From NCBI GenBank assembly GCA_945877625.1, contig CAMCSF010000002.1, forward strand, positions 1 through 49,410: DNA of 49,410 nt. The letters run 5' to 3'. Positions 3,995-44,016 of the stretch are shown one piece after another (position 1 is the first letter of the stretch; every line of letters begins with the position of its first letter). Position numbers and translations under genes: made by a program. The notes beneath the pieces are model-generated. The model saw nothing but the letters and a program-made list of their open reading frames with translations. It made no database searches and was not told where the DNA came from. Source of the DNA: Methylomonas koyamae (GTDB lineage Bacteria; Pseudomonadota; Gammaproteobacteria; Methylococcales; Methylomonadaceae).

Positions 3995-5275
3995 ATGACA
4001 ACTGTTGCTGTAATTGGTTTAGGTTATGTAGGACTTCCACTAGTCGTTGAATTTGGTAAACACGGTCCAACGATAGGCTTTGATATTGCAGAAGCGAAAG
4101 TTGAATCTTGCAAAAATGGTGTTGATCCGGCGCATGAATTATCAGAACAAGATATGGCCTCAGCCGTATTTGCTGAATACTCCTCTGATCCATCAGTATT
4201 GGCTGAAGCCGATATTATTATCATTGCGGTGCCAACACCGGTCGATGGCGCACATATTCCCGACTTCACACCGTTAATAGGTGCTAGTCGCTGCGCTGGT
4301 CAATATATGAAAAAAAATACCATTGTTATTTATGAGTCAACGGTATATCCCGGCGCCACTGAAGAAATCTGTATTCCTGTATTAGAACAAGCCTCAAATA
4401 TGAAATGGAAAAAAGATTTCTTTGTCGGTTATTCGCCCGAAAGAATTAACCCCGGTGATCGCGAACATACGCTGACTAAAATCTTGAAAGTCGTATCGGG
4501 CGATACCGCTGAAACTTTAGAAAAAGTCGCTGAATTATATGAAAAAATCGTCATTCCAGGGGTGCATCGTTGTTCCAGTATTAAAGCAGCCGAAGCCTGT
4601 AAAGTGATTGAAAATACCCAGCGTGATTTGAATATTGCGTTAATGAATGAATTAGCAATTATTTTTGAAATGCTAGATATTGATACTAATGAAGTATTCG
4701 AAGCCGCTGGCACTAAATGGAATTTTTTAAATTTCAAGCCGGGGTTGGTGGGTGGTCATTGTATTGGCGTAGATCCTTATTATTTAACCCATAAAGCGGT
4801 AACCATGGGTTATCACCCGCAGGTGATTTTAGCGGGCAGACGGATTAATGATGGTATGGGGAAGTTTATTGCTGAGCAAACCATTAAAGTGATGATTTCT
4901 TGTGGTAGTTACGTTAAAGGCGCTAGAGTTAATATTCTAGGGCTTACATTTAAAGAAAACTGTGCTGATTTGCGTAATTCAAAAGTGATTGATGTAATTA
5001 ATGAATTAGCTATTTATGGTATTGATGTATTTGTTCATGATCCTCATGCCGACCATGACGAAGCATTGAATGAATATGGGGTGAAATTATTGCCTTGGAA
5101 TGATATGCCAAGAGCGGATGCGATTATTGCCGCTGTCTCGCATCAACAATTCAATGATTTATCAGTTGATGATTTTCAACAAAAACTGATTAAAGGCGGT
5201 TGTTTAATTGATGTGAAATCCAGTTTTTCAGTCCCAGAAATGCAAGCAGCCGGAATTAAAGTTTGGCGGCTTTAA
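3995..5275 (+). CDS. Nucleotide-sugar dehydrogenase, TviB/WbpA-WbpO type (UDP-HexNAc 6-dehydrogenase)
   Basis: Rossmann VAVIGLGYVGLPL; IVYESTVYPGATEE; GYSPERINPGD; catalytic FKPGLVGGHCIGVDPYYLTHKA; ILGLTFKENCADLRNSKV. Confidence 0.92.
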   Translation: MTTVAVIGLGYVGLPLVVEFGKHGPTIGFDIAEAKVESCKNGVDPAHELSEQDMASAVFAEYSSDPSVLAEADIIIIAVPTPVDGAHIPDFTPLIGASRCAGQYMKKNTIVIYESTVYPGATEEICIPVLEQASNMKWKKDFFVGYSPERINPGDREHTLTKILKVVSGDTAETLEKVAELYEKIVIPGVHRCSSIKAAEACKVIENTQRDLNIALMNELAIIFEMLDIDTNEVFEAAGTKWNFLNFKPGLVGGHCIGVDPYYLTHKAVTMGYHPQVILAGRRINDGMGKFIAEQTIKVMISCGSYVKGARVNILGLTFKENCADLRNSKVIDVINELAIYGIDVFVHDPHADHDEALNEYGVKLLPWNDMPRADAIIAAVSHQQFNDLSVDDFQQKLIKGGCLIDVKSSFSVPEMQAAGIKVWRL

Positions 5276-5353
5276 GACTGAAATATTTTTATAAATTAAA
5301 TAATTTAGCGTAAGCTGGAATTGGGTTTTAATTTAGGATTTGGAAGGATTACT

Positions 5354-6175
5354 ATGCGTAATGCTTATATTAGTTATTCTTATTGGTTTATGGCTTTATT
5401 AAGCAGTAGTTCTAGGATGGCCTCAGGTGCGGGAATGGTGGATGACTTTGATCAAGCGACGCCCTCTGTTATCTACGAAACCGGATCAATGTCTGAATCG
5501 ACCGAACCTCAGTGGTGGTTGAATTCGGGTGGACAGTTGACCCGCACAGGCAAAATGCTCAGTAGCGTGCAAGGCCAGTTAGCCAATTCAGATAGTTTTC
5601 GTAATTTATATGCTAACTCTAATCCAGTCGATACTGACAATGGTTATCGGCCACAAAATTTATTGCGATTGGTGACAAGGGTTAAATTTAAGAACTTTAA
5701 TCAACAAGTGTTCTTCAATATTCAGAATATCAATGCCTCAGATAGTCCCAATCGAAATCAATCAAATGGGGTGTTTTTCTTTAATCGTTATCAAGATGGT
5801 AAAACGCTTTACTACGTCGGGATTCGTGTTGATGGTACTGTGGTTATCAAGAAGAAATTTGCTGGCGAATATACAACTTTAAAGTCTGCGGTTGTTTATC
5901 CCGGTGTTTATCAACATGAAATCCAAGCTAATTTATTGCCGACCCATCGCTGGATAGGTATTCGCTCAGAAGTTGTTAATCTTGACAATAACTCGGTTTT
6001 AATTGCGATGTATTTAAACGATAGTCAGCTAGGAACCGGTTGGACTAAGGTATTAGAAGTAATCGATTCCGGTAGTAATGGTGAAGCTATTTTAAATGAA
6101 GGTTTTGCTGGCATACGCAGTGATTTTATGGATGTTAATTTTGATGCTTATATGGCCGTTGAGAATCCTGAATAA
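5354..6175 (+). CDS. Secreted protein with ConA-like/LamG-like beta-sandwich pattern
   Basis: Start moved to MRNAYISYSYWF (ATG 5354). The segment HRWIGIRSEVVNLDNNSVLIAMYLNDSQLGTGWTKVLEVIDSG resembles [40 protein letters not shown] in the 6249-7889 product. Confidence 0.6.
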   Translation: MRNAYISYSYWFMALLSSSSRMASGAGMVDDFDQATPSVIYETGSMSESTEPQWWLNSGGQLTRTGKMLSSVQGQLANSDSFRNLYANSNPVDTDNGYRPQNLLRLVTRVKFKNFNQQVFFNIQNINASDSPNRNQSNGVFFFNRYQDGKTLYYVGIRVDGTVVIKKKFAGEYTTLKSAVVYPGVYQHEIQANLLPTHRWIGIRSEVVNLDNNSVLIAMYLNDSQLGTGWTKVLEVIDSGSNGEAILNEGFAGIRSDFMDVNFDAYMAVENPE

Positions 6176-6202
6176 TTAATCCGGTTTTTTGATCATAAAG
6201 CG

Positions 6203-6240
6203 AGGGTGGATAGCTTGTACTTATCCACCCTGTGTTTTTT
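6203..6240 (+). terminator. Rho-independent terminator
   Basis: AGGGTGGATA-gcttgtact-TATCCACCCT then gtgtttttt. Confidence 0.8.
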
Positions 6241-6248
6241 ATATTCAG

Positions 6249-7889
6249 TTAAGGAACGATGCTTAAAATTCTACAAACCGAATCATAGCCTACACTTGCG
6301 ATACTGGCGAAATTATTAATCAACGGCACATAAGATTGTTCGGTTCGGAATAAAAGGTTTTTACCGATTATTTGGTAGTTAGTGCCATCGCTACTGACAT
6401 AAGCATTGTAACGATGATTTAGTAGATTAATATAAAGTCTGAATCGATAGGCTTTATTGGGCAGATAACTAATTGAGGTACTGGCTTTATAAGCGCCACC
6501 GCTACGGGCATCGATTTTACCGTTGGTATTAAATCTAACTGCGGCCGCCAAATCACTGTAGTTATCAGCAATACCATTCGATAAACCAAATACACCATCA
6601 ATATTGGTTCCCGAAGGAGTGGCATCAAACTCAACTGTCATCGTGGTTTTGGTGGGGGTGAGTGATTTATTCACCCATTGGCCATTACTGGCGATGCAAT
6701 TATCAACGGTTTTGAACGATTGATCGCTGGATGTGCCGATGTTGCCAGCAGTATCTTCGGATTTGACCAAGTAATGATAAATCGTATTAAGGCTTAAACC
6801 GGTTAAATCGACATTATGAATAGTCACCAAAACTTCATCCAAGATGCTCGGTTTTTCGTAGGCGGTAGTGGTGCCGTATTGCACTTCCGAACTGGCTAAT
6901 TCATCAGTGGTCCAAGTAACAGTCGCTTGCTCACCTTGGATATTTTCTGCCGCCACATCACTAATAATTGGTGCGATAGCATCCGGCAAAATCGAGGCGT
7001 TTGGCGCAATCTCGCGGATAGTCATTTTTTTGTAAACCAAACCATTAGTCGAAACATTATCGCTACGGAAATAGACGGTGATGTTCGGTTTGCCGGATTC
7101 ACTACCCGGTCTAGCATCAGAATTGCTCAGTTTGATGCCGGGATTTATCCCTGATTTACAAGGCGTGCCTTGCGCACCGAAATTGCTGCCGGTATCGACT
7201 AATTCATTGACTTTAATCCAGTTTCCACCGTTCGCGCCATCGGATTGATCCATCCACAATTCCATTTTGACATTGCCATCCGGTTGGTCATAAACCACAT
7301 ATTTATAGCCAATCCAGACATTTTTCGGTAAGCCGGAAGACCAAACAGTTTTGTTTTGGATTGCGGTGGAATTAGGGTGACTGGTTTCTTTTTCAAAATC
7401 GATATGACCGTCATAACGAATCCTAGCCCCTATACCGCGTGTATCGCAGAGGTTGGCAGTTTCTGAGCCAGTGGTGCCGTGGTTGGTACGAGCGATTCCG
7501 ACGATGCCGCCCCAAGCAGTGCCGCTATCAGCGACGCGCATCGCATAAACCGTCATTTCCACATTACGCCAACTATTCAGTTTAGCGGGATCGTGGATAT
7601 ACATTCTCGGCACTGAGCCGGAAATCTTGAATAAGCCCTTGCCATCGACGCTATAGGTGGCGTCGCCATGATCGGCGTCGAACCAAGCATCTTGAGGATC
7701 GACACCCGAAAAAGAGCGGGTGATGCCGTTATCCCATTTTGAAACCCATGATTTTCCACCATTTAGCGATGGGTAGATTTGCGTTATGCCAAAGGAATCA
7801 TTGGCAGCCATCACCGGTGTCGACAATATCAAGCCAGTGGCAATGCCGACAGAGATTAATTTAGAACAAAAAAAGGGAGGTAGATTCAT
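6249..7889 (-). CDS. Secreted protein: ConA-like N-terminal region plus fibronectin-III-like domain plus unknown C-terminal domain
   Basis: Signal peptide ([20 protein letters not shown]); [39 protein letters not shown]...[33 protein letters not shown] is a typical FnIII pattern. Confidence 0.7.
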
Positions 7890-8353
7890 TGCTTTACTCC
7901 ATGTTAATGAATATGACGAATTTTTAATCTAAGAAAAACGAGTCGAATCAATTAAATAAGTATTTGATGACTTGTAAAAATAAGAATAGATATTTAACAT
8001 CCCCTAGAAACATCGCATCATAATAGTTGTTCTTAGATTTTTTAAATCAAGTGTAATGGGGATTAATTGAATTCTAACCCTAAAAACATAGCGTGTTTGT
8101 TATTTGATGATGAAACTTACAATTGTTGATTAAATAAAATAAAAAGTTATGTTACTTAGTTAACGAATGTTATTTATCGCACAGAACGGTTTTTTATCGA
8201 TTGATATGGTTACTGTAAGTTGAATAAGTAGTGATTTTATTTGGCTTGCTTTGAATAGAAAGTGTCTACCTAAAAGGCATATCAATTATATGCTGAAGCA
8301 GTTATTGATTTTCAAAACTGCATTATTTCAGTAAACCCGTTTTGGAGAGAGCG

Positions 8354-9685
8354 ATGTTATCAACCGAAAAAGCAGTTTCAATTGTCGATTACGACGCCGC
8401 TGGGTTAAGCCCGCCTATGAGTTGGAATTTAGATTTCAAACGCCCATTAATTTTTATTGCTGCTGTAGGATTAATTGTTTTTGCAATGGTGACAGTATTT
8501 GGTTTGCGATTAAGTAATTTTACTTATTATTGGTATAGCCCTTATGCCAATTTATATTCGATAGCCATTGCTGGTTTTATCTTTTCCCGATTCCTGTTTT
8601 CTTTGCTGTATCGCACCCCCTACGACGCTCATATCACCCCCAAAGTCAGCATTATCATTACCGCCTTTAACGAAGAAGAGGCGATTTATAGAACCGTTAA
8701 AGCTTGCTATGACATTGATTATCCAGCGGATCTGTTTGAGGTGATCGTGGTGGATGATGGTTCTAGCGATGGCACGGTTGCGGAAACTCGACGCGCCCAG
8801 AAACGCTGGCCGGAACTGAAATTAGAAATTTTTGCCCATAACAAAGGTAAACGCGAAGCGATGGCGGCAGGGGCTTATATTTCCGATGGCGAAATATTGG
8901 TCTATGTCGATTCCGACAGCTTTGTTAAGCGCGATGGCGTACGCAAAATTGTGCAAGGCTTTGCTGATCCGCGTGTCGCCGCGGTGGCAGGGCATACCGA
9001 AGTGGCTAATGTCGCTGAAAACAGCCTAACCCGAATGCAACAAGCCCGTTATTACGTGGCGTTTCGGGTCATGAAAGCCGCTGAGAGTATTTTCGGCACC
9101 GTCACTTGTTGCCCCGGTTGCTTTTCCGCTTATCGCCGTAGTTGTGTGATGGAAGTGTTGCCGGTTTGGTTGAATCAGCACTTTCTCGGCATTCAAGCCA
9201 CCTTTGGCGATGACCGCAGTTTAACCAATTACTTGCTACGCAAATATCGCGTGATTTATGCCGCCGATGCGGTTGCCACCACCATCGTCCCAGAACATCA
9301 CAAACAATTTCTAAAACAGCAATTACGCTGGAAAAAATCTTGGTTTCGCGAAACCTTAATCGCCGCCACCTTTATGTGGAAAAAACACCCGTTTGCAGCG
9401 ATTGCTTTTTATGCCCAGCTTTTATTCCCCATCATTGCGCCGTTATTGATTTTGCGCTTGTGCTTATGGTTGCCGATTATGGAAACCGATTTGATTTCAC
9501 CGCTGTTGTATTTAATGGGTACGGTGATTATTGGCTTAATGTTTTCGGCCTATTACCTGTTTTGGAAAGCTGATCGTTACTGGATTTATGGTCTGTATTT
9601 CACCGTGTATTACTTGATGTTTTTGGTTTGGCAAATGCCGTATGCGATAGCCACCCAACGTGATAACAGATGGGGGACCCGATGA
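8354..9685 (+). CDS. Family 2 glycosyltransferase, membrane synthase (HasA/NodC/PgaC-like)
   Basis: SIIITAFNEEEAIYRTVKACY; VVDDGSSDGTV; YVDSDSFV; QQLRWKKSW; N-terminal and multiple C-terminal TM segments. ATG at 8354 follows ggagag. Confidence 0.88.
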   Translation: MLSTEKAVSIVDYDAAGLSPPMSWNLDFKRPLIFIAAVGLIVFAMVTVFGLRLSNFTYYWYSPYANLYSIAIAGFIFSRFLFSLLYRTPYDAHITPKVSIIITAFNEEEAIYRTVKACYDIDYPADLFEVIVVDDGSSDGTVAETRRAQKRWPELKLEIFAHNKGKREAMAAGAYISDGEILVYVDSDSFVKRDGVRKIVQGFADPRVAAVAGHTEVANVAENSLTRMQQARYYVAFRVMKAAESIFGTVTCCPGCFSAYRRSCVMEVLPVWLNQHFLGIQATFGDDRSLTNYLLRKYRVIYAADAVATTIVPEHHKQFLKQQLRWKKSWFRETLIAATFMWKKHPFAAIAFYAQLLFPIIAPLLILRLCLWLPIMETDLISPLLYLMGTVIIGLMFSAYYLFWKADRYWIYGLYFTVYYLMFLVWQMPYAIATQRDNRWGTR

Positions 9686-11562
9686 GTAGCTTACCAATGC
9701 AGCATTTTCCTAAATATCCGGTACCCGTCAGCCATAAACGCAACCTGATTTGGTGGTTGCTATTAATTGCTGCGGTGATTACCGGTCACGAATTACCAAA
9801 ATTACTAGCCAGCACGGGTACTCAAAGCCCGCCAGTTATCACTAGCATCGAAAACCAAGCGTTTTTGGCTTTAACCTTTGGCAAAGTCAGTAATAAGGCT
9901 GGTTTGGCGATTTCGGTTAACAGCTTAAAAGACGATTTAAGCGCGATTAAACAAGCCGGTTACCACACGCTGAGTTTGGCGCAAATCAATGGTTGGCGAA
10001 CCAATAATAATCAATCGCTACCCAGCAACCCTGTGTTGCTGACTTTTGAAGAAGCCAATCGCGAAACCATTGAAATTGTTGATCCAGTGTTAGCCCGACT
10101 AGGGATGACCGCTACCGTGTTTGTTGATGTCGCTGAGCTTGAGCAGGCCAATATTCATTTGGTGTCGTGGCATAAGCTAGAGCTGATGGCGAAAAGTGGT
10201 CGTTGGGAAGTGGCGGTCTCTGCTTGTCCGAATGGTGATGACCAAGGCTTTGCTAATCCGGTGTTATTGGCACAGAAACTGAGCCAACAACGGCAAAGAT
10301 TAGAACAGCGTCTACAAATGCCAGTGTTAGTGGCGGATTGTTCACGGGCGTGGAATCCGGCCTATGGCGATGGCGCGGTGATTTGGCCGCAAACATTGAC
10401 TGAGGCTGGTTTTTCTATGGGCTTCGTCGCAGCGGCATCGGGGGCTAATTATCACGCCGATAATGCATCGAATTTAAAACGGATTCGGGTTTCAAGAACC
10501 TGGTCGCCAGCCGAATTAGTCAGTCAACTCAATAATAACCAACCGCGCCGTACCGAATTTGTCGATCAATTTGATTCGGCGCTTTCGGCCTCGGCGTGGA
10601 TTGTTGATAGCGGTGAATTGAATATTGAGCCGGGTAATTTACGTCTAAGCAATAGCCCGAACCAGCAGGGCGGATTAATCAGTTTAGCGGGTACTGAAAA
10701 ATGGCGAGATGCCGATCTTGAAGTGCAATTAGCTGGGCCGCCCACCGGCCAATTTTGGCTGTCTTTACGCCACGACAGCCATCGCCCTTCGATTCGGCTC
10801 GGCATCGCTAATGGCCAAGTTTTATTGCAAGAATCACTCGCTACCGATGTCCATCGCCAATTAGCCAGTGTTGATGTCAGTGAAGGGCCGTTGAGTTTAA
10901 GACTGCGGGTGGTCGGCAAAGGCGCGATGGCGTATTTGAATGACCAGCCGTTAACCAATCGCCCAGTCGCCATGCCAGAAGGCGCTGAACAAGGCCCTGT
11001 GAGCTTGTCGGTTTGGCAGCCAGTGTCTGAAACCGCTGATTTAATCGAGGCGGTGGTCAATCTCAGCAAAGTCAGCGCAAAACCGCTAGAAGCCAAAGCC
11101 GGCATTATTAGCCCCGTGTTAGATGAAAACGGCTGGCAACAACTGCATGATGCGGTTGATCAATTGGCGATCCTCAGTCCGCAGTATTTCGCTTGGCAAG
11201 AGGGTAAGCCACAAGTGTTAGCGGCTTATGACAATGCCTTGGAGATTTTTGCCCGTTTTCACCAGCTTAGTTTTCAACCGACTGTGGTTGTTGATCGTCA
11301 AACTCCGCTGTCTGAGGCGCCTTTATTGGCCGAACAACTGATTAATTGGGCTAGTGAACCGGAATTTGACGGGCTGAATCTGGTGTTAAACGATTCTATG
11401 CTCAATGATGGCTGGCGGGCATTTTTGACCGATTTAATCCAACGTATCCGTCAAACCGGCAAGACGCTGACGGTGACTGTACTTGATGTCAATCAACAGT
11501 CTCAACCTATGGATGCTAATCATTTTTTATCGGTGGTGGCTAGTGCGGCAACCATCAATTAA
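9682..11562 (+). CDS. Membrane-anchored protein with degenerate polysaccharide deacetylase-like fold plus ConA-like and barrel-like C-terminal regions
   Basis: ATG at 9682 overlaps the upstream stop (ATGA). One TM segment, then VLLTFEEANRETIEIVDPVLARLGMTATVFVDVAELE... parallels PgaB AIMLTFDDGYQSFYTRAMPLLKKYKYPATLAVVGTWLE in this same window. Confidence 0.65.
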   Translation: MSSLPMQHFPKYPVPVSHKRNLIWWLLLIAAVITGHELPKLLASTGTQSPPVITSIENQAFLALTFGKVSNKAGLAISVNSLKDDLSAIKQAGYHTLSLAQINGWRTNNNQSLPSNPVLLTFEEANRETIEIVDPVLARLGMTATVFVDVAELEQANIHLVSWHKLELMAKSGRWEVAVSACPNGDDQGFANPVLLAQKLSQQRQRLEQRLQMPVLVADCSRAWNPAYGDGAVIWPQTLTEAGFSMGFVAAASGANYHADNASNLKRIRVSRTWSPAELVSQLNNNQPRRTEFVDQFDSALSASAWIVDSGELNIEPGNLRLSNSPNQQGGLISLAGTEKWRDADLEVQLAGPPTGQFWLSLRHDSHRPSIRLGIANGQVLLQESLATDVHRQLASVDVSEGPLSLRLRVVGKGAMAYLNDQPLTNRPVAMPEGAEQGPVSLSVWQPVSETADLIEAVVNLSKVSAKPLEAKAGIISPVLDENGWQQLHDAVDQLAILSPQYFAWQEGKPQVLAAYDNALEIFARFHQLSFQPTVVVDRQTPLSEAPLLAEQLINWASEPEFDGLNLVLNDSMLNDGWRAFLTDLIQRIRQTGKTLTVTVLDVNQQSQPMDANHFLSVVASAATIN

Positions 11563-11566
11563 GGAG

Positions 11567-11608
11567 TTTTTCATTTAGCCCTGTGATTAGCGCAGGGCGA
11601 ATGAAAAA
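11567..11608. other. Imperfect hairpin immediately after the 9682-11562 CDS
   Basis: TTTTTCAT-tta-GCCCTG-tgattagcg-CAGGGC-ga-ATGAAAAA. Confidence 0.6.
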
Positions 11609-11615
11609 AGGTGAG

Positions 11616-11648
11616 ACCACTAAGCAATCTAGCAAAGCGGTGGTTTTT
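11616..11648 (+). terminator. Possible terminator/attenuator hairpin
   Basis: ACCAC-19 nt-GTGGT followed by TTTT. Confidence 0.4.
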
Positions 11649-11686
11649 ATATGAATAAGTGATCAACAAAAAGAAATTTGGCTTTT

Positions 11687-11724
11687 TTAAGCTGGACTGG
11701 ATTTGTTAAGCCGGACGTGGTTTG
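11687..11724 (+). repeat. Adjacent imperfect 19-nt tandem repeat in leader
   Basis: TTAAGCTGGACTGGATTTG followed directly by TTAAGCCGGACGTGGTTTG (15/19 identical). Confidence 0.55.
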
Positions 11725-11798
11725 TAGCCCCGTCTGATAGCCCAAAAGACTTTAGTTCGATGACTTATCTTTAATCTGTCATTTAAGGAAGCTATGCC

Positions 11799-12365
11799 AT
11801 GAATCAATATAAGAATCATCAACTTAACTATTCAGGGGGCGGTGGCGCTGTTGGGCGCTGTCGGCCAGTCCGTTTAATCGCCGCAACTTTGCTGATAGCC
11901 GCTTCAGCTTCGGTGTTTGCTGATGCTCATTTGGGACTGACCTTAACTGGGCCAAAAACCGCACCATCGGGTTATCCGGTTGAAGGGATTAATGTCAAAT
12001 TGGTTAATCAAAATGCGACTGATGCCCCCGCATCGCGGTTACGTGTCTTTATTCATGATGAACTAGACCGCGATTTACAAACCGGCGACATCAAAATTGA
12101 TGTACTGGAAGGCGGTGATTGGCAAGCGTTATCACTGGAGCCGATTGATGGCGGCGTGATGGCGGCGATAGGTTCTGCCGGTCTGCCACATGATGATTAC
12201 CATGAAAAAGGCGGCTTTCCGATTGATAAAAAAACCATTAAAGAATGGCGTTTACGAGTAACGCTGGCTTTGTCGGGGCATTATTCGCTAGTGGTGGCGG
12301 TGTCGCCGGATAACGGCAGTACTCATTTAGCGCAACCGGCTAGTTTGAAATTGGAGGCCTTATGA
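11799..12365 (+). CDS. Secreted protein of unknown function, translationally coupled to downstream deacetylase
   Basis: Signal peptide (LIAATLLIAASASVFADA); stop overlaps the next ATG (ATGA at 12362). Confidence 0.7.
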   Translation: MNQYKNHQLNYSGGGGAVGRCRPVRLIAATLLIAASASVFADAHLGLTLTGPKTAPSGYPVEGINVKLVNQNATDAPASRLRVFIHDELDRDLQTGDIKIDVLEGGDWQALSLEPIDGGVMAAIGSAGLPHDDYHEKGGFPIDKKTIKEWRLRVTLALSGHYSLVVAVSPDNGSTHLAQPASLKLEAL

Positions 12366-14782
12366 GAATCCAGTCTTTCAAACTGATGTTGATGGTTTTA
12401 TTGTCGATAGTGAGCTTAAATCAGTCGGTGCAAGCGGCGCCATTGTGGCGGACGTTAGTATCGTTAACCTTTGATGATGGTTTAACTCAATCAGCGGCGC
12501 TGGCGATTTTGGCAAAACACAAAATGGTCGGCACGTTTTACGTGAATAGCGATAGGATTGATGATACTGATTATTTATCCAAAGCCGAGTTAGATAGCTT
12601 GGTCGCTGCTGGTAGTGAAATTGGTGGTCATACGATCAATCATGTTGATTTAGCGACCTTGTCAGACTCAGCCCAACGCACGGCGATTTGTGATGATATG
12701 AAAAATTTGGTCAATTGGTATGGTGTTGATCAAGTTCATAGCTTTGCTTATCCGTTCAGTTCGACCGGGCCGACTACGCAAAGTATCGTGGCTGCTGGAT
12801 GTTCGGGAGTTGGTACTTATGAAAGTGCTCGAGCGGTGGGTGGTTTAGTCAGTGGTTCTTTTTGTACTAGCTGTCCTTGGTCGGTCAATGTGCCACCGGG
12901 CAATCCTTATTTCATCCCTACCAATAGCTCAACCAAATCGTTCAATACCTTGGCCGATTTACAAAGCTATGTGTTACAAGCAGAGCAACATGGTGGCGGT
13001 TGGATTCCGATTGTGTTTCACCGAGTGTGCGATGGTTGTGACACTTTGTCGGTTAGTCCAACGGTTTTGGATGATTTTTTAACTTGGTTGGAACCACGCG
13101 CTGCGGCTAATGCGACCTATGTCAGAACGGTGCATCAGGTGATGGCGGGAGATTTTCCGGCGCCACCTGAGCCGCAATTGGGGCCTAATCTACTGAAAAA
13201 TCCGTCCTTAGATTTAGATGCAGATAACAATAATCAAGCCGATTGTTGGTATCGCTCTAACTATGGCAGCAACACCGCAACTTGGACACACAATAAAGAT
13301 TTGACTAAATCCCATAGCGGTATTGGTAGCGAAACTGTCACGATGACCAGTTATAGCAACGGAGATCGTAAATTATTGCCGACTTTAGACTCAGGCCAAG
13401 CGGCGGGGGCTTGTGCGCCGAATGTGGTGGCAGGGCAAACCTATCAGTTAAGTGCTTGGTACAAATCAACTGCGTCGGTGTCGTTGACCTTGTTTTATCT
13501 TGATGCGGGTAACGTTTGGCGATACTGGCGTGATGGGCCTTTGTATGACGCCGCGGGTAATTGGACTCAGTTTAAATACTATGCAACCGATTTGCCGGCC
13601 GGTGCGAAAGCGGTTAGTTTTGGTTTGTCATTGGCTAAAGTCGGTGAACTCACCACCGATGATTATTCATTGGCTATGGTCACAGGTTCGGGTGGGGGTG
13701 TTGTTACAGATAACACGCCGCCAGTGATTGCCAACATCACGCCGGCGAGTGGGACTACGGTCAGCGGTGTTGTCTCGCTAACAGCCAATGTGACTGATGA
13801 CACTGAGGTTCAACAAGTTGAGTTTTTAATCAACGGTACTGTGGTGGGAACTGATAGCGCTAGCCCTTACTCCGTTTCGTGGAATTCAACAGCAGTGGGC
13901 AATGGTACGGTGAACTATAGCGTCAAGGCGGTTGATACGTCGGGTAACCCAGCCTCTTCTGGCAATAACGCCTTAACGGTGAAAAATGATGCTGCCGCGC
14001 CAACCATTAACTTTAACCAGCCGCCGACACCAAATGCCGGTGACACGGTGTCTGGTCAAGTGACGTTGTCTGCCAATGCGAGTGATGATATTGCTGTCAC
14101 CAAAGTGGAGTTTTTGGTCAATAACCTGGTGGTGGCGACGGTTAATGCCAGCCCTTACACAGCGACTTGGAATACCACGCAGAATGCCAATGGCTCAGCC
14201 AGCATCGTTGCCAAAGCGTATGATGGTTCTGGCAATGTGACGCCGACAGCGCCGTTGAGCGTGACGGTCAACAACACGCAAGCAGTTAGTTTGTTGAGCA
14301 ATGCTTCGTTGGAAACCGATGCCAATAACGACAATATTCCTGATTGTTGGTATCAAGATGCTTATGGTTCTACCTATAATCGTACTGTTTGGACTCGGAT
14401 TAACAACCCTAGCTTGGCGCATAGCGGTAATTATGCACACTCTGTACAGTTGACTCGCTATAGATCCGGTGATGTGAAGTTGCTACAAGATGAATCAAAT
14501 AGTTCTTGTGTGCCGTCGGTTGTTGCCGGTAAGAAATACACGATTAGTGCTTGGTATAAATCGACCGTAGCGACCAGTATGGCGGTGTTTTATCGCAATA
14601 GCGCTGGCAACTGGGTGTATTGGTTGAACACTCCTAACTTTGCGGTGGCTAGTAATTGGACGCAAGCCAGTTACACACTGCCTGTGGTACCGGTCGGTGC
14701 GACGGCAATCTCGTTTGGCTTGTCTATTCAGAAAGTCGGTACTTTAATTACCGATGATTATGCGGTGGTTGCAGTGCCTTAA
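12362..14782 (+). CDS. Secreted multidomain polysaccharide deacetylase (NodB homology) with two Ig-like domains and two homologous C-terminal modules
   Basis: SLTFDDG, GGHTINHVD, FAYPFSSTG, PIVFHRV (NodB motifs); two PPVI..ITPASGTTVSGVVSL-type Ig-like repeats; two ~165 aa DCWY...SAWYKST...ISFGLS.KVG.L.TDDY modules. Confidence 0.85.
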   Translation: MRIQSFKLMLMVLLSIVSLNQSVQAAPLWRTLVSLTFDDGLTQSAALAILAKHKMVGTFYVNSDRIDDTDYLSKAELDSLVAAGSEIGGHTINHVDLATLSDSAQRTAICDDMKNLVNWYGVDQVHSFAYPFSSTGPTTQSIVAAGCSGVGTYESARAVGGLVSGSFCTSCPWSVNVPPGNPYFIPTNSSTKSFNTLADLQSYVLQAEQHGGGWIPIVFHRVCDGCDTLSVSPTVLDDFLTWLEPRAAANATYVRTVHQVMAGDFPAPPEPQLGPNLLKNPSLDLDADNNNQADCWYRSNYGSNTATWTHNKDLTKSHSGIGSETVTMTSYSNGDRKLLPTLDSGQAAGACAPNVVAGQTYQLSAWYKSTASVSLTLFYLDAGNVWRYWRDGPLYDAAGNWTQFKYYATDLPAGAKAVSFGLSLAKVGELTTDDYSLAMVTGSGGGVVTDNTPPVIANITPASGTTVSGVVSLTANVTDDTEVQQVEFLINGTVVGTDSASPYSVSWNSTAVGNGTVNYSVKAVDTSGNPASSGNNALTVKNDAAAPTINFNQPPTPNAGDTVSGQVTLSANASDDIAVTKVEFLVNNLVVATVNASPYTATWNTTQNANGSASIVAKAYDGSGNVTPTAPLSVTVNNTQAVSLLSNASLETDANNDNIPDCWYQDAYGSTYNRTVWTRINNPSLAHSGNYAHSVQLTRYRSGDVKLLQDESNSSCVPSVVAGKKYTISAWYKSTVATSMAVFYRNSAGNWVYWLNTPNFAVASNWTQASYTLPVVPVGATAISFGLSIQKVGTLITDDYAVVAVP

Positions 14783-40310: not shown

Positions 40311-42224
40311 ATGCGCCTTTTAGCTCGTTTAGTTTTTATATTTATCTGCCTTTTTTTCAGCACTTTAGCGATTGCTGAAACCGCTATTCCCGGTTTTATT
40401 GTGGTGAATTATCACGATATTCTCGAAGAAGAGGAGCGGGTACCGCCATTTGATCGAATCGCTGTTTGTAAACAACATTTGGAAGATCATTTCGCTTGGC
40501 TGAAGAAAAATAACTATCACGTTATTAGCGTTCAAGACGTTTTGGATGCCATGAAAGGTGACAAGCCATTGCCGCCCAAGGCAATCATGCTGACTTTTGA
40601 TGATGGCTATCAAAGCTTCTATACCCGAGCGATGCCACTGCTGAAAAAATATAAATATCCAGCCACTTTAGCGGTAGTCGGTACTTGGTTGGAACAGCAA
40701 AAAGTCGCCGGTGTTAAGCCTTTAATGACGCCAGCGCAAATTCGTGAAGTGATGAATAGCGGTTTGGTCGAAATTGCTTCTCATACCCACGATTTACACC
40801 ATGACATTCCTGCTAATCCACAAGGCAATAATCAAAGTGCCGTCACAGCGCGTTTGTATAGTGCTGAGTATGATGAATATGAGAATGACGAAAGTTACCG
40901 TAAACGCTTGTTTAACGAAATTGACAAAAGTTCTGAGCGTTTATTTCAAATTACCGGCAAACGCCCAAGGGTGATTGTCTGGCCTTATGGCGAATACAAC
41001 AGCATCGCTTTGGAAGCCGCTAAATTGGCCGGAATGCCCATTACTATGGGTTTAAATGATGGCCTGAATACTTTGGCCGATGCTCGAGTCATGAAGCGAA
41101 TGATGATTACAGACGATGCAAATGCCGAGCAATTTGCTGAAATCGTTAAGAATCAACGTAACGCAGAAAAATTACGGGTTGCTCATGTTGATTTGGATTA
41201 CATCTATGATGACGATGAAGAACAAACTGCTAAAAATTTAACCTCCTTGTTAGAGCGGATTAAAGCCAGTGGTGCTAACACTGTTTATTTACAAGCTTAT
41301 TCCGATCCTGATGGTGACGGCAACGCCGATCAACTGTATTTTCCGAATCGCCATTTGCCAGTTCGTCGTGATTTGTTCAATCATGTGGCATTACAGTTGC
41401 GTACTCGCGCTGGGGTTAAAGTTTATGCGTGGATGCCGATTTTGGCTTACAAAGGCGATGCGCCTTTGAAATGGTATGTCAAAGAATGGCGTGATGGTGA
41501 AGCGCAGTTATCGCGTCACATCTATACGCGTTTATCGCCGTTTAATCCTGAAGCGCGTCAATATATTGGCGAGATTTACGAAGATTTAGCCAAAAACTGT
41601 AGCTTCAATGGCATTTTGTTCCATGATGACGGAATTTTGTCTGATTATGAAGACGTGTCGCCAATGGCGATGGATTTTGCTCATAACGTTTGGGGCTTGC
41701 CGGCTGAGTTTAAAAAAATCCACGATTCGCCTGAACTGCGTTTACGTTGGGGGCAATATAAAACTGAATTTTTAGGTCAATTCACCGATTATTTGACCGA
41801 TAGAGTTCGTTATTACCGTCCGTATGTCAAAACTGCGCGTAATTTTTATGCTTTGCCATTAATGCAGCCTTATAGCGAAGAATGGTATGCACAATCATTC
41901 CCAAGCTTTATGAAGCATTACGATTACGTGGCGATAGAGGCGATGCCTTTCATGGAAAAAGCGGCCGATCCTAAAAAATGGTTAACTGAATTAGTGAAGA
42001 AAACCGCTGAATATCCACATGGTTTAGACAAAATGGTGTTTGAGCTACAAGCGGTGGATTGGGAAAAACAGCAAGATATTCCGATGGCCATATTTAATGA
42101 GCAATTCCAGTTGTTGAAAAAACAAGGTGCAAAACATATTGGTTATTACCCTGATAATCAGTATCGCGATCAACCTAAACTGGAAGAGTTGAAGAAATAT
42201 TTTGCTGTCGATAAACAAAATTAA
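40311..42224 (+). CDS. pgaB: Poly-beta-1,6-N-acetyl-D-glucosamine N-deacetylase PgaB
   Basis: NYHDILEEEERVPPFDRIAVCKQHLEDHFAWLKKNNYHVISVQDVLDA; IMLTFDDGYQSFYTRAMPLL; EIASHTHDLHH; WPYGEYN; C-terminal glycosidase-like domain with FNGILFHDDGILSDYED. Confidence 0.95.
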   Translation: MRLLARLVFIFICLFFSTLAIAETAIPGFIVVNYHDILEEEERVPPFDRIAVCKQHLEDHFAWLKKNNYHVISVQDVLDAMKGDKPLPPKAIMLTFDDGYQSFYTRAMPLLKKYKYPATLAVVGTWLEQQKVAGVKPLMTPAQIREVMNSGLVEIASHTHDLHHDIPANPQGNNQSAVTARLYSAEYDEYENDESYRKRLFNEIDKSSERLFQITGKRPRVIVWPYGEYNSIALEAAKLAGMPITMGLNDGLNTLADARVMKRMMITDDANAEQFAEIVKNQRNAEKLRVAHVDLDYIYDDDEEQTAKNLTSLLERIKASGANTVYLQAYSDPDGDGNADQLYFPNRHLPVRRDLFNHVALQLRTRAGVKVYAWMPILAYKGDAPLKWYVKEWRDGEAQLSRHIYTRLSPFNPEARQYIGEIYEDLAKNCSFNGILFHDDGILSDYEDVSPMAMDFAHNVWGLPAEFKKIHDSPELRLRWGQYKTEFLGQFTDYLTDRVRYYRPYVKTARNFYALPLMQPYSEEWYAQSFPSFMKHYDYVAIEAMPFMEKAADPKKWLTELVKKTAEYPHGLDKMVFELQAVDWEKQQDIPMAIFNEQFQLLKKQGAKHIGYYPDNQYRDQPKLEELKKYFAVDKQN

Positions 42225-42232
42225 GGTAGGCA

Positions 42233-43582
42233 ATGGACAATCTTATCGCACAGCCTTGGGTACAAGAGCTAATTGATTTTTGGTTGAAGGCGCAAGAGCA
42301 TTATCAAGAATTGCCTTGGGCGCATTTTGATGAATGGCTATCGCGATTTATCTTTTATTACCCATTATTAATGGCTTATGTCTGGATGTTGGGTGGGATT
42401 ATTTACTATCTGCGCTGGGAACGTAATCGCGGTAATGTGTTGTCAGATTTGCCGGTTTTGGATCAATATCCATCGGTTTCAATTTTGGTGCCTTGTTATA
42501 ACGAGGGCGAAAATGTTCGGGAAACGATTGAATATTTATTACATCAGCAATATCCCAATTACGAGATTATTGCGGTTAATGACGGTAGTAAAGACAACAC
42601 CTTAGACATTCTGCATGAATTGGCCGATCAACATCCGCTAATTCGGGTGGTTAATTTAGCCAGCAATCAAGGTAAAGCGGTTGGATTACGGACAGCAGCT
42701 TTAGTATCAAACAGCGAAATCTTAATCGGTATTGATGGTGATGCGCTATTAGCACCGAATGCGACGGCTTGGATTGTGCGTCATTTTCTTGACAATCCTA
42801 ATGTCGGCGCAGTGACCGGTAATCCACGGATTCGCAATCGTTCCAGTTTGTTAGGCAAGATTCAGGTCGGTGAGTTTTCAGCGATAGTTGGGATGATTAA
42901 ACGTGCTCAACGATCGTATGGACACATTTTTACCATTTCCGGAGTGATTGCAGGTTTCCGTAAAACCGCGCTACATGATGTTGGTTATTGGAGTCCTGAT
43001 ATGGTGACCGAGGACATCGATATTAGTTGGAAATTGCAATTGGCGGGTTGGTCAATTCGATTTGAGCCTAATGCGCTGTGTTGGGTGTTGATGCCGGAAA
43101 CTTTGAATGGTTTATGGAAGCAACGCAGTCGTTGGGCGCAAGGCGGGGTAGAAGTGTTATTACGCTACTTTAAACCCTTATTAAGCTGGCGTTCGCGCGG
43201 CATGTGGCCTTTATATTTGGAATGTAGCATTAGTTTATGCTGGGCATTTTTGGTAGTGGGTTTATTACTTGCTGCGCCAGTGCAATGGATTATTAGTGAA
43301 CAACCTCAAGAAGCTTTAGAAGATTTGTCGCCGCGTTGGACTAGTATGTTGTTGTGTGTGACTTGTTTAATTCAGTTTGCGGTCAGTTTGGCGATTGATT
43401 CCAGTTATGAAAAGCGCAGTGGTGGTTCGGCTAAACATTATTATTGGATGATTTGGTATCCGATTGTTTATTGGATGATTAACGTAGGCACCACGATTCA
43501 TGGTTGTTTCAAAGCTTTGCGCAAAAAACGTGGCCAACGCGCGGTTTGGGTGACTTTGGATAGAGGATTAAGACAAAAATGA
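42233..43582 (+). CDS. pgaC: Poly-beta-1,6-N-acetyl-D-glucosamine synthase PgaC
   Basis: SILVPCYNEGENVRETIEYLLHQQYPNYEIIAVNDGSKDNT; GIDGDALL; VTEDIDISWKLQLAGW; KQRSRWAQGGVEVLLRYFKPL. Confidence 0.95.
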   Translation: MDNLIAQPWVQELIDFWLKAQEHYQELPWAHFDEWLSRFIFYYPLLMAYVWMLGGIIYYLRWERNRGNVLSDLPVLDQYPSVSILVPCYNEGENVRETIEYLLHQQYPNYEIIAVNDGSKDNTLDILHELADQHPLIRVVNLASNQGKAVGLRTAALVSNSEILIGIDGDALLAPNATAWIVRHFLDNPNVGAVTGNPRIRNRSSLLGKIQVGEFSAIVGMIKRAQRSYGHIFTISGVIAGFRKTALHDVGYWSPDMVTEDIDISWKLQLAGWSIRFEPNALCWVLMPETLNGLWKQRSRWAQGGVEVLLRYFKPLLSWRSRGMWPLYLECSISLCWAFLVVGLLLAAPVQWIISEQPQEALEDLSPRWTSMLLCVTCLIQFAVSLAIDSSYEKRSGGSAKHYYWMIWYPIVYWMINVGTTIHGCFKALRKKRGQRAVWVTLDRGLRQK

Positions 43583-44016
43583 AAGAAATCATTATTAATC
43601 AGCCGCACTTACAAAGTTTTCGCCAAAAGTGTGGCTCTTGGTTTTTGTCGGCAGTTAGCTGGTTGCTGTGGCTGTATTTTTTGTTACCACTGTTTACTTT
43701 AGGCGGTTGGTTGCTGGGCGTTAAAAGTTTATCGGACGAAATTCGCTGGTTTGGTGGCTATAAGACTTTGCTAGAGTTATTAGAATTGTACGGCGAAATT
43801 ATTTTAGTGATTGCTGCAGGTTGGGCGGTTTGGTCTTTGTGTTTATCTTGGTTGCATGCCGGTAAATCATCAAAACAACTGCCGACTGTCAATGATGAGC
43901 AGTTATGTGCTAGTTTTAAAGTCGATCAAAAGCAGCTAATTGAAGCAAGGGCTTTAAACAAAGTCACTGTTTGCTTTGATGATCATGCTGGTATTGTTGA
44001 TATTCTTCATAAATAA
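43579..44016 (+). CDS. pgaD: PgaD-like membrane protein
   Basis: ATGA overlap with pgaC; two TM segments (LSAVSWLLWLYFLLPLFTLGGWLLG; IILVIAAGWAVWSLCLSW). Confidence 0.85.
   Translation: MKEIIINQPHLQSFRQKCGSWFLSAVSWLLWLYFLLPLFTLGGWLLGVKSLSDEIRWFGGYKTLLELLELYGEIILVIAAGWAVWSLCLSWLHAGKSSKQLPTVNDEQLCASFKVDQKQLIEARALNKVTVCFDDHAGIVDILHK

Follow-up and report, generated by a model that had tools for sequence, protein, structure and literature searches.

The window analysed here, a stretch of 49,410 nucleotides from contig CAMCSF010000002.1 of Methylomonas koyamae, contains a cluster of seven open reading frames (ORFs) at positions 3995-14782 (Table 1). A preliminary description, made from the letters alone, had read these ORFs as an undescribed synthase-dependent exopolysaccharide (EPS) locus apart from pga, with a TviB/WbpA-type UDP-N-acetylhexosamine (UDP-HexNAc) dehydrogenase, a GT2 glycosyltransferase with HasA/NodC-like motifs, a coupled, membrane-anchored degenerate deacetylase (hereafter the partner), an orphan secreted protein coupled to an intact NodB deacetylase and two ConA-like secreted proteins. 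All seven ORFs were present in the sequence, and each of these assignments was upheld. The cluster is likely to belong to a synthase-dependent EPS system consisting of a hyaluronan synthase (HAS) type enzyme with a pseudo-deacetylase as its co-subunit, a NodB deacetylase, and a porin fused to a deacetylase, the last encoded outside the window. Scanning the window for Rfam families and tRNAs returned no matches.

Table 1. Genes of the putative EPS locus and the evidence for their assignment
Feature	Position	Strand	Basis
UDP-HexNAc 6-dehydrogenase, TviB/WecC-like	3995..5275	+	domain models, structure neighbours, GT2 linkage
ConA1: secreted jelly-roll protein, about 273 aa, lectin/CBM66-like fold	5354..6175	+	motifs, fold, linkage
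ConA2: secreted 546-aa protein, ConA-like region, Fn3-like domain, weak CBM-like match; accessory	6249..7889	-	domain matches, linkage
HAS-class processive GT2 synthase	8354..9685	+	motifs, curated models, structure neighbours, tree
Partner: membrane-anchored pseudo-deacetylase with transmembrane helix, degenerate PgaB-type NodB fold, jelly roll and C-terminal alpha/beta domain	9682..11562	+	model, alignment, ATGA overlap
Secreted 188-aa protein	11799..12365	+	always paired with NodB protein
Secreted NodB-family deacetylase, intact motifs, two Big_7 domains, two repeated binding-type modules	12362..14782	+	domain matches, motifs

The GT2 gene likely starts at the ATG at 8354, which is preceded by GGAGAG. 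Its product possessed the motifs DDGSSD, DSDS, GDDRSLTN, QQLRWKKSWFRE and a C-terminal WGTR. NodC was the top curated family in NCBIfam (192 bits against a cut-off of 550), and the PgaC model TIGR03937 gave 121 bits where 422 are required. Hyaluronan synthases were the closest solved structures (E about 1e-34), with an alignment that reached the end of the GT2, and in the tree the Methylococcales GT2s formed a single clade (support 98/99) apart from other HAS-like GT2s. With its full motif set the enzyme is HAS-class and is predicted to be a processive inner-membrane synthase. Pfam gave no PilZ or GGDEF domain for any protein of the locus, though no search was aimed at control of the synthase. 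The GT2 of UBA6146 was interrupted by an in-frame stop codon (L096:10715-10717), with the genes downstream intact.

The partner is translationally coupled to the GT2, its ATG at 9682 overlapping the end of the GT2 gene as ATGA. An N-terminal transmembrane helix was predicted (residues 22-46, counted in the 9670 reading), and the structure model (pLDDT, the predicted local distance difference test, 77) recovered all the parts listed in Table 1. Its NodB-type fold matched PplD, PgaB and IcaB. The metal residues were gone, TFDD having become TFEE, and the histidine box was absent. In an active-site alignment of the partners, the porin fusions described below and the window's own PgaB, the metal residues were lost in all ten Methylococcales partners compared, where TFEEA, TFDEA, TFDVA or TFDEP replaced TFDDG and no histidine box remained. 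The loss is thus conserved, and “degenerate” is the correct label. Partners from Omnitrophota, Butyrivibrio and Pectinatus were also degenerate, and those of four Patescibacteria loci retained the histidines together with TFDDGR, which reads AFDDGR in one of them. The PgaB model TIGR03938 scored 36 bits on the partner against a cut-off of 322, and no PgaB hydrolase domain was recognisable in it.

Carriers of the GT2 were defined in a panel of 101 relatives as genomes with a match above 700 bits, the next best match being about 100. Six genomes, from four genera and two families, qualified. The partner was found in 6/6 carriers and in none of the 95 non-carriers (Fisher p 8e-10, this and the following values not being corrected for relatedness). 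A fusion of tetratricopeptide repeats (TPR), a deacetylase and a barrel was found in five of the six (p 8e-8), as was the NodB protein (p 8e-8), and ConA2 in three (p 1e-4); none of these reached that level in any of the 95 non-carriers. A lack of co-occurrence in related genomes had been named in the preliminary description as grounds for rejecting the locus, and co-occurrence is what the relatives displayed. The genes at 3995-14782 belong together; the genes on either side of them are not the same in the window as in its 97% relative (L093).

A single genome-wide scan recovered 22 loci. The GT2 and partner pair was present in 11 Methylococcales loci with a GT2 identity of 72-97%, including those of Methylovulum psychrotolerans, Crenothrix polyspora, Methyloglobulus and Methylocaldum. 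At 42-52% identity, the pair recurred in Omnitrophota, Planctomycetota, Bacillota (Butyrivibrio and Pectinatus) and four Patescibacteria. A PgaB-like gene lay directly 3′ of the GT2 in nearly all loci with readable flanks; it was not evident in the planctomycete L103, where gene calls were unclear, in a metagenome-assembled genome (MAG) labelled Nitrosopumilus (34% identity) or in the two-gene locus L111. Seeds included, surveys found the GT2 clade in three of the 294 Planctomycetota genomes covered and in seven of 299 from Bacillota, and no further carrier was detected among 368 Gammaproteobacteria. Weaker HAS-like GT2s in Gammaproteobacteria (about 250 bits) had no adjoining deacetylase in the three cases inspected. 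In the Pectinatus locus (L109:7622-17346) the GT2 pair had further genes around it, for a NodB protein of two domains, a GH18 protein and one more, third deacetylase.

The TPR-deacetylase-barrel fusion was found when relatives were queried with the partner, which gave a second, weaker matching stretch in a protein of about 1345 residues. TPR occupied residues 40-700 approximately, followed by a PgaB-type deacetylase at 724-900 (5bu6, E 1e-16), more TPR and a C-terminal barrel. The Pfam PgaA_barrel model matched 7/7 barrels tested (best E 3e-4), and PgaA (4y25) was the only PDB profile match of the barrel (E 0.8). The Methylococcales chains terminated in F or Y, as is typical of barrels. The fusion adjoined the GT2 in eight of ten informative Methylococcales loci, and lay on a separate contig in the window's genome (G000:C116, with its start lost at the contig end) and in the relative G004 (G004:C18). 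TFDDAR and two histidines were intact in 7/8 Methylococcales fusions, and the deacetylase motif was also intact in the planctomycete fusion. The exception was Methyloglobulus (L099:16597-20670), whose fusion deacetylase lacks one metal aspartate and one histidine (TFDGAR, CQG); the NodB protein is retained in Methyloglobulus. The Patescibacteria loci, where the partner itself is intact, yielded no barrel gene. From its sequence the fusion is predicted to be a dedicated outer-membrane porin with a TPR scaffold. The earlier remark that no dedicated porin is seen holds for the window, from which the fusion could not have been noticed, but not for the genome. The OmpA-family gene at 2642 was considered as a porin and rejected, being an ordinary OmpA that is not conserved beside the cluster across loci; it is only a neighbour, as had been suggested.

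The dehydrogenase had UDPG_MGDP_dh domains in Pfam. TviB was its top equivalog model (487 bits, under that model's cut-off of 592), UDP-glucose dehydrogenase models reached just 37-137 bits, and the nearest solved structures were UDP-HexNAc dehydrogenases such as Cap5O. A dehydrogenase was linked to the GT2 in 5/11 Methylococcales loci, and outside Methylococcales it adjoined the GT2 in four loci (Pectinatus, Saccharibacteria, Zambryskibacteria and Bacillota). For these linked genes the top score always went to a TviB/UDP-HexNAc-type or a generic NDP-sugar model and never to a UDP-glucose model. Judged by these scores, the dehydrogenase is a probable supplier of UDP-amino-uronic acid. Two Bacillota loci (L111:9680-12688 and L155:1192-4041) contained only a GT2 and a UDP-HexNAc-type dehydrogenase, in a two-gene, hasAB-like layout.

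ConA1 and ConA2 were only weakly related to each other. ConA1 proteins from Methylococcales and Patescibacteria were 36-45% identical, shared the invariant motifs NRN..NG, YY.G.RVDG...KKK and a GIRSDFMD-type motif, and in four Patescibacteria genomes lay within about 3 kb of the GT2. Since ConA1 is conserved and linked to the GT2 across phyla, it is a component of the system and not a bystander. The top matches of its model, of modest quality (pLDDT 63), were CBM66 and lectins. Matches to PL14 and GH16 had an E of about 1e-3, and one alginate lyase bearing a CBM gave 8e-5. An AlgL-like role as a polysaccharide lyase was considered and is not favoured by this model, CBM66 and lectins matching better than PL14 and GH16, but it is possible. 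ConA1 probably binds the polymer and possibly cuts it. A ConA1-type domain also terminates a far larger protein in a Patescibacteria genome without the GT2 (L128, G328:C7:58190-58918). ConA2 was present in 6/11 Methylococcales loci. The 188-aa protein had no Pfam or NCBIfam match; its gene overlaps that of the 806-aa NodB protein by ATGA, and the latter retains TFDDG and GHTINH. A second such pair was found in the same genome (L090:876-3850, G000:C30), with NodB copies 63% identical, and both pairs stand in tandem in G004, G010 and UBA6146.

The pga genes of the window, at 40311-44016, form a separate, true PgaB/C/D set, in which PgaC scored 593 bits on TIGR03937 and PgaD lies at 43579. This set lacks pgaA, and no canonical PgaA barrel was above cut-off in the window's genome (G000) or its 99% complete relative G004. 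Membership of the GT2 cluster in canonical pga was ruled out: the PgaC and PgaB models fell under cut-off, the partner has lost its metal residues and no PgaD-like ORF adjoined the GT2 in the locus comparison. The cluster shares with pgaABCD, the Gram-negative poly-N-acetylglucosamine (PNAG/PGA) system, a GT2 synthase, a PgaB-type deacetylase fold and export by TPR and a PgaA-like barrel. It differs in having a HAS-class synthase instead of PgaC, no PgaD, a coupled PgaB-like protein without catalytic metal residues or hydrolase domain, a deacetylase with active motifs fused into the porin, and a linked dehydrogenase and ConA1. A single HAS-like GT2 with a nucleotide-sugar dehydrogenase is also the plan of hasA/hasB, closest in the two-gene Bacillota loci, but here the dehydrogenase is of UDP-HexNAc and not UDP-glucose type, and the system adds deacetylases and a protein for export across the envelope. 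Since the tested defining features of pga and of has fail, the system belongs to neither. The earlier statement that the gene set matched neither was right in this respect but too broad, as the synthase resembles HAS, the partner PgaB and the porin PgaA. The tvi genes of Vi antigen share a TviB-like UDP-GlcNAc dehydrogenase; unlike them, the locus lacks a TviE-type polymerase and an ABC exporter, and the TviB model is under cut-off. The nearest precedent for a periplasmic modifying enzyme fused to an outer-membrane pore is BcsZC of Zymomonas cellulose operons, a hydrolase fused to the cellulose pore (PMC7112194), whereas here a deacetylase is set between TPR and a PgaA-like barrel. No published description of the gene set emerged from a search of the open-access literature on the EPS of methanotrophs, EPS with amino-uronic acids, the sheaths of Crenothrix and fusions of PgaA with PgaB; its scope did not extend to subscription papers or preprints. 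By its predicted gene content the system is a previously undescribed variant of the synthase-dependent EPS class, outside pga and has.

The following mechanism is drawn by analogy from known PNAG and hyaluronan systems and from the gene anatomy described above. What was directly established in that anatomy is which genes are present, the folds of their products, whether active sites are kept or lost, and the coupling, conservation and co-occurrence of the genes. The inner-membrane GT2 would polymerise UDP-HexNAc, probably together with UDP-amino-uronic acid from the adjacent TviB-like dehydrogenase, and extrude the chain into the periplasm. There the anchored pseudo-deacetylase, having lost catalysis, would serve as the synthase's co-subunit and hold or guide the chain. 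The chain may then pass to the TPR scaffold of the fusion, be partially de-N-acetylated by the deacetylase domain of the same protein and exit through its PgaA-like barrel, while the secreted NodB deacetylase and the jelly-roll proteins would modify or bind the polymer. Polymer chemistry, the direction of transfer and a cell-surface or matrix role are what we infer. On the gene content the polymer probably contains HexNAc. An amino-uronic acid content is less sure but plausible, because the linked dehydrogenases score best as UDP-HexNAc-type or generic NDP-sugar enzymes and never as UDP-glucose enzymes.

Several points weigh against this interpretation. ConA1, ConA2, the 188-aa protein and the NodB protein are each absent from some loci, and no dehydrogenase adjoins the GT2 in 6/11 Methylococcales loci, of which one is a contig of 3.3 kb. 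The barrel matches of the fusion are weak (E 3e-4 in Pfam and 0.8 in PDB). The window's assembly is a MAG of 81% completeness and 5.9% contamination, and since its porin is on a different, end-cut contig, a local operon that includes it is putative there. Polymer make-up and protein roles are predicted from sequence.

The polymer could instead be a deacetylated chitin-like or PNAG-like homopolymer of N-acetylglucosamine and glucosamine, the dehydrogenase being a mere neighbour that serves another surface glycan. We consider this rather unlikely. In its favour, the GT2 scores highest on NodC among curated families, several N-deacetylases would suit a HexNAc homopolymer, and L084, L096, L097, L100 and L112 are among the loci with no adjacent dehydrogenase. 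However, linkage of the dehydrogenase to the GT2 clade recurs in five Methylococcales and four other loci, sometimes as a two-gene pair, and the solved-structure neighbours of the GT2 are hyaluronan synthases, which use uronic acid. Short lipo-chitooligosaccharide-like products, brought to mind by a NodC-like GT2 alongside a NodB-type deacetylase, are very improbable, as the locus has no acyltransferase or NodIJ-like exporter, export through TPR and a barrel, with an anchored partner resembling PgaB, suits long chains, and the GT2 bears the HAS-type signature GDDRSLTN...RWKKSWFRE...WGTR.

The lack of a canonical PgaA in G000 and G004, despite pgaB/C/D in the window, also raises the idea that the fusion is the missing PgaA of that set and that the GT2 cluster exports by another route. 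This is improbable, since the fusion mostly stands beside the GT2, G045 and G053 carry canonical PgaA and the fusion together, and GT2-negative relatives give no fusion-level match. The intact site lies in the partner in Patescibacteria and in the porin in the diderm Methylococcales and the planctomycete. This distribution fits duplication of a deacetylase followed by division of labour; other histories are possible. A wider proposal is tentative, and we hold it as somewhat doubtful: that HAS-class synthases of Methylococcales, Planctomycetota, Omnitrophota, Bacillota and Patescibacteria make a widespread, undescribed class of glycosaminoglycan-like (HexNAc/amino-uronic) polymer, one copy of the deacetylase having turned into a catalytically dead subunit of the synthase and the second, in diderms, into part of the outer-membrane exit pore.

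Synthesis genes for the matrix and sheath polysaccharides of methanotrophs are largely unassigned, and a concrete gene set is now at hand. One GT2 locus falls in the genus Crenothrix, which is sheathed. Since Methylovulum psychrotolerans, Methylocaldum and Pectinatus, which have the gene set, are in culture, product and mechanism are directly testable. A deacetylase built into the pore and a dead, synthase-coupled paralogue bear on the link between modification of the chain and its secretion in EPS systems. As predicted from its genes, the set probably serves a methane-oxidising bacterium to build, trim and export a surface polysaccharide that is sticky.

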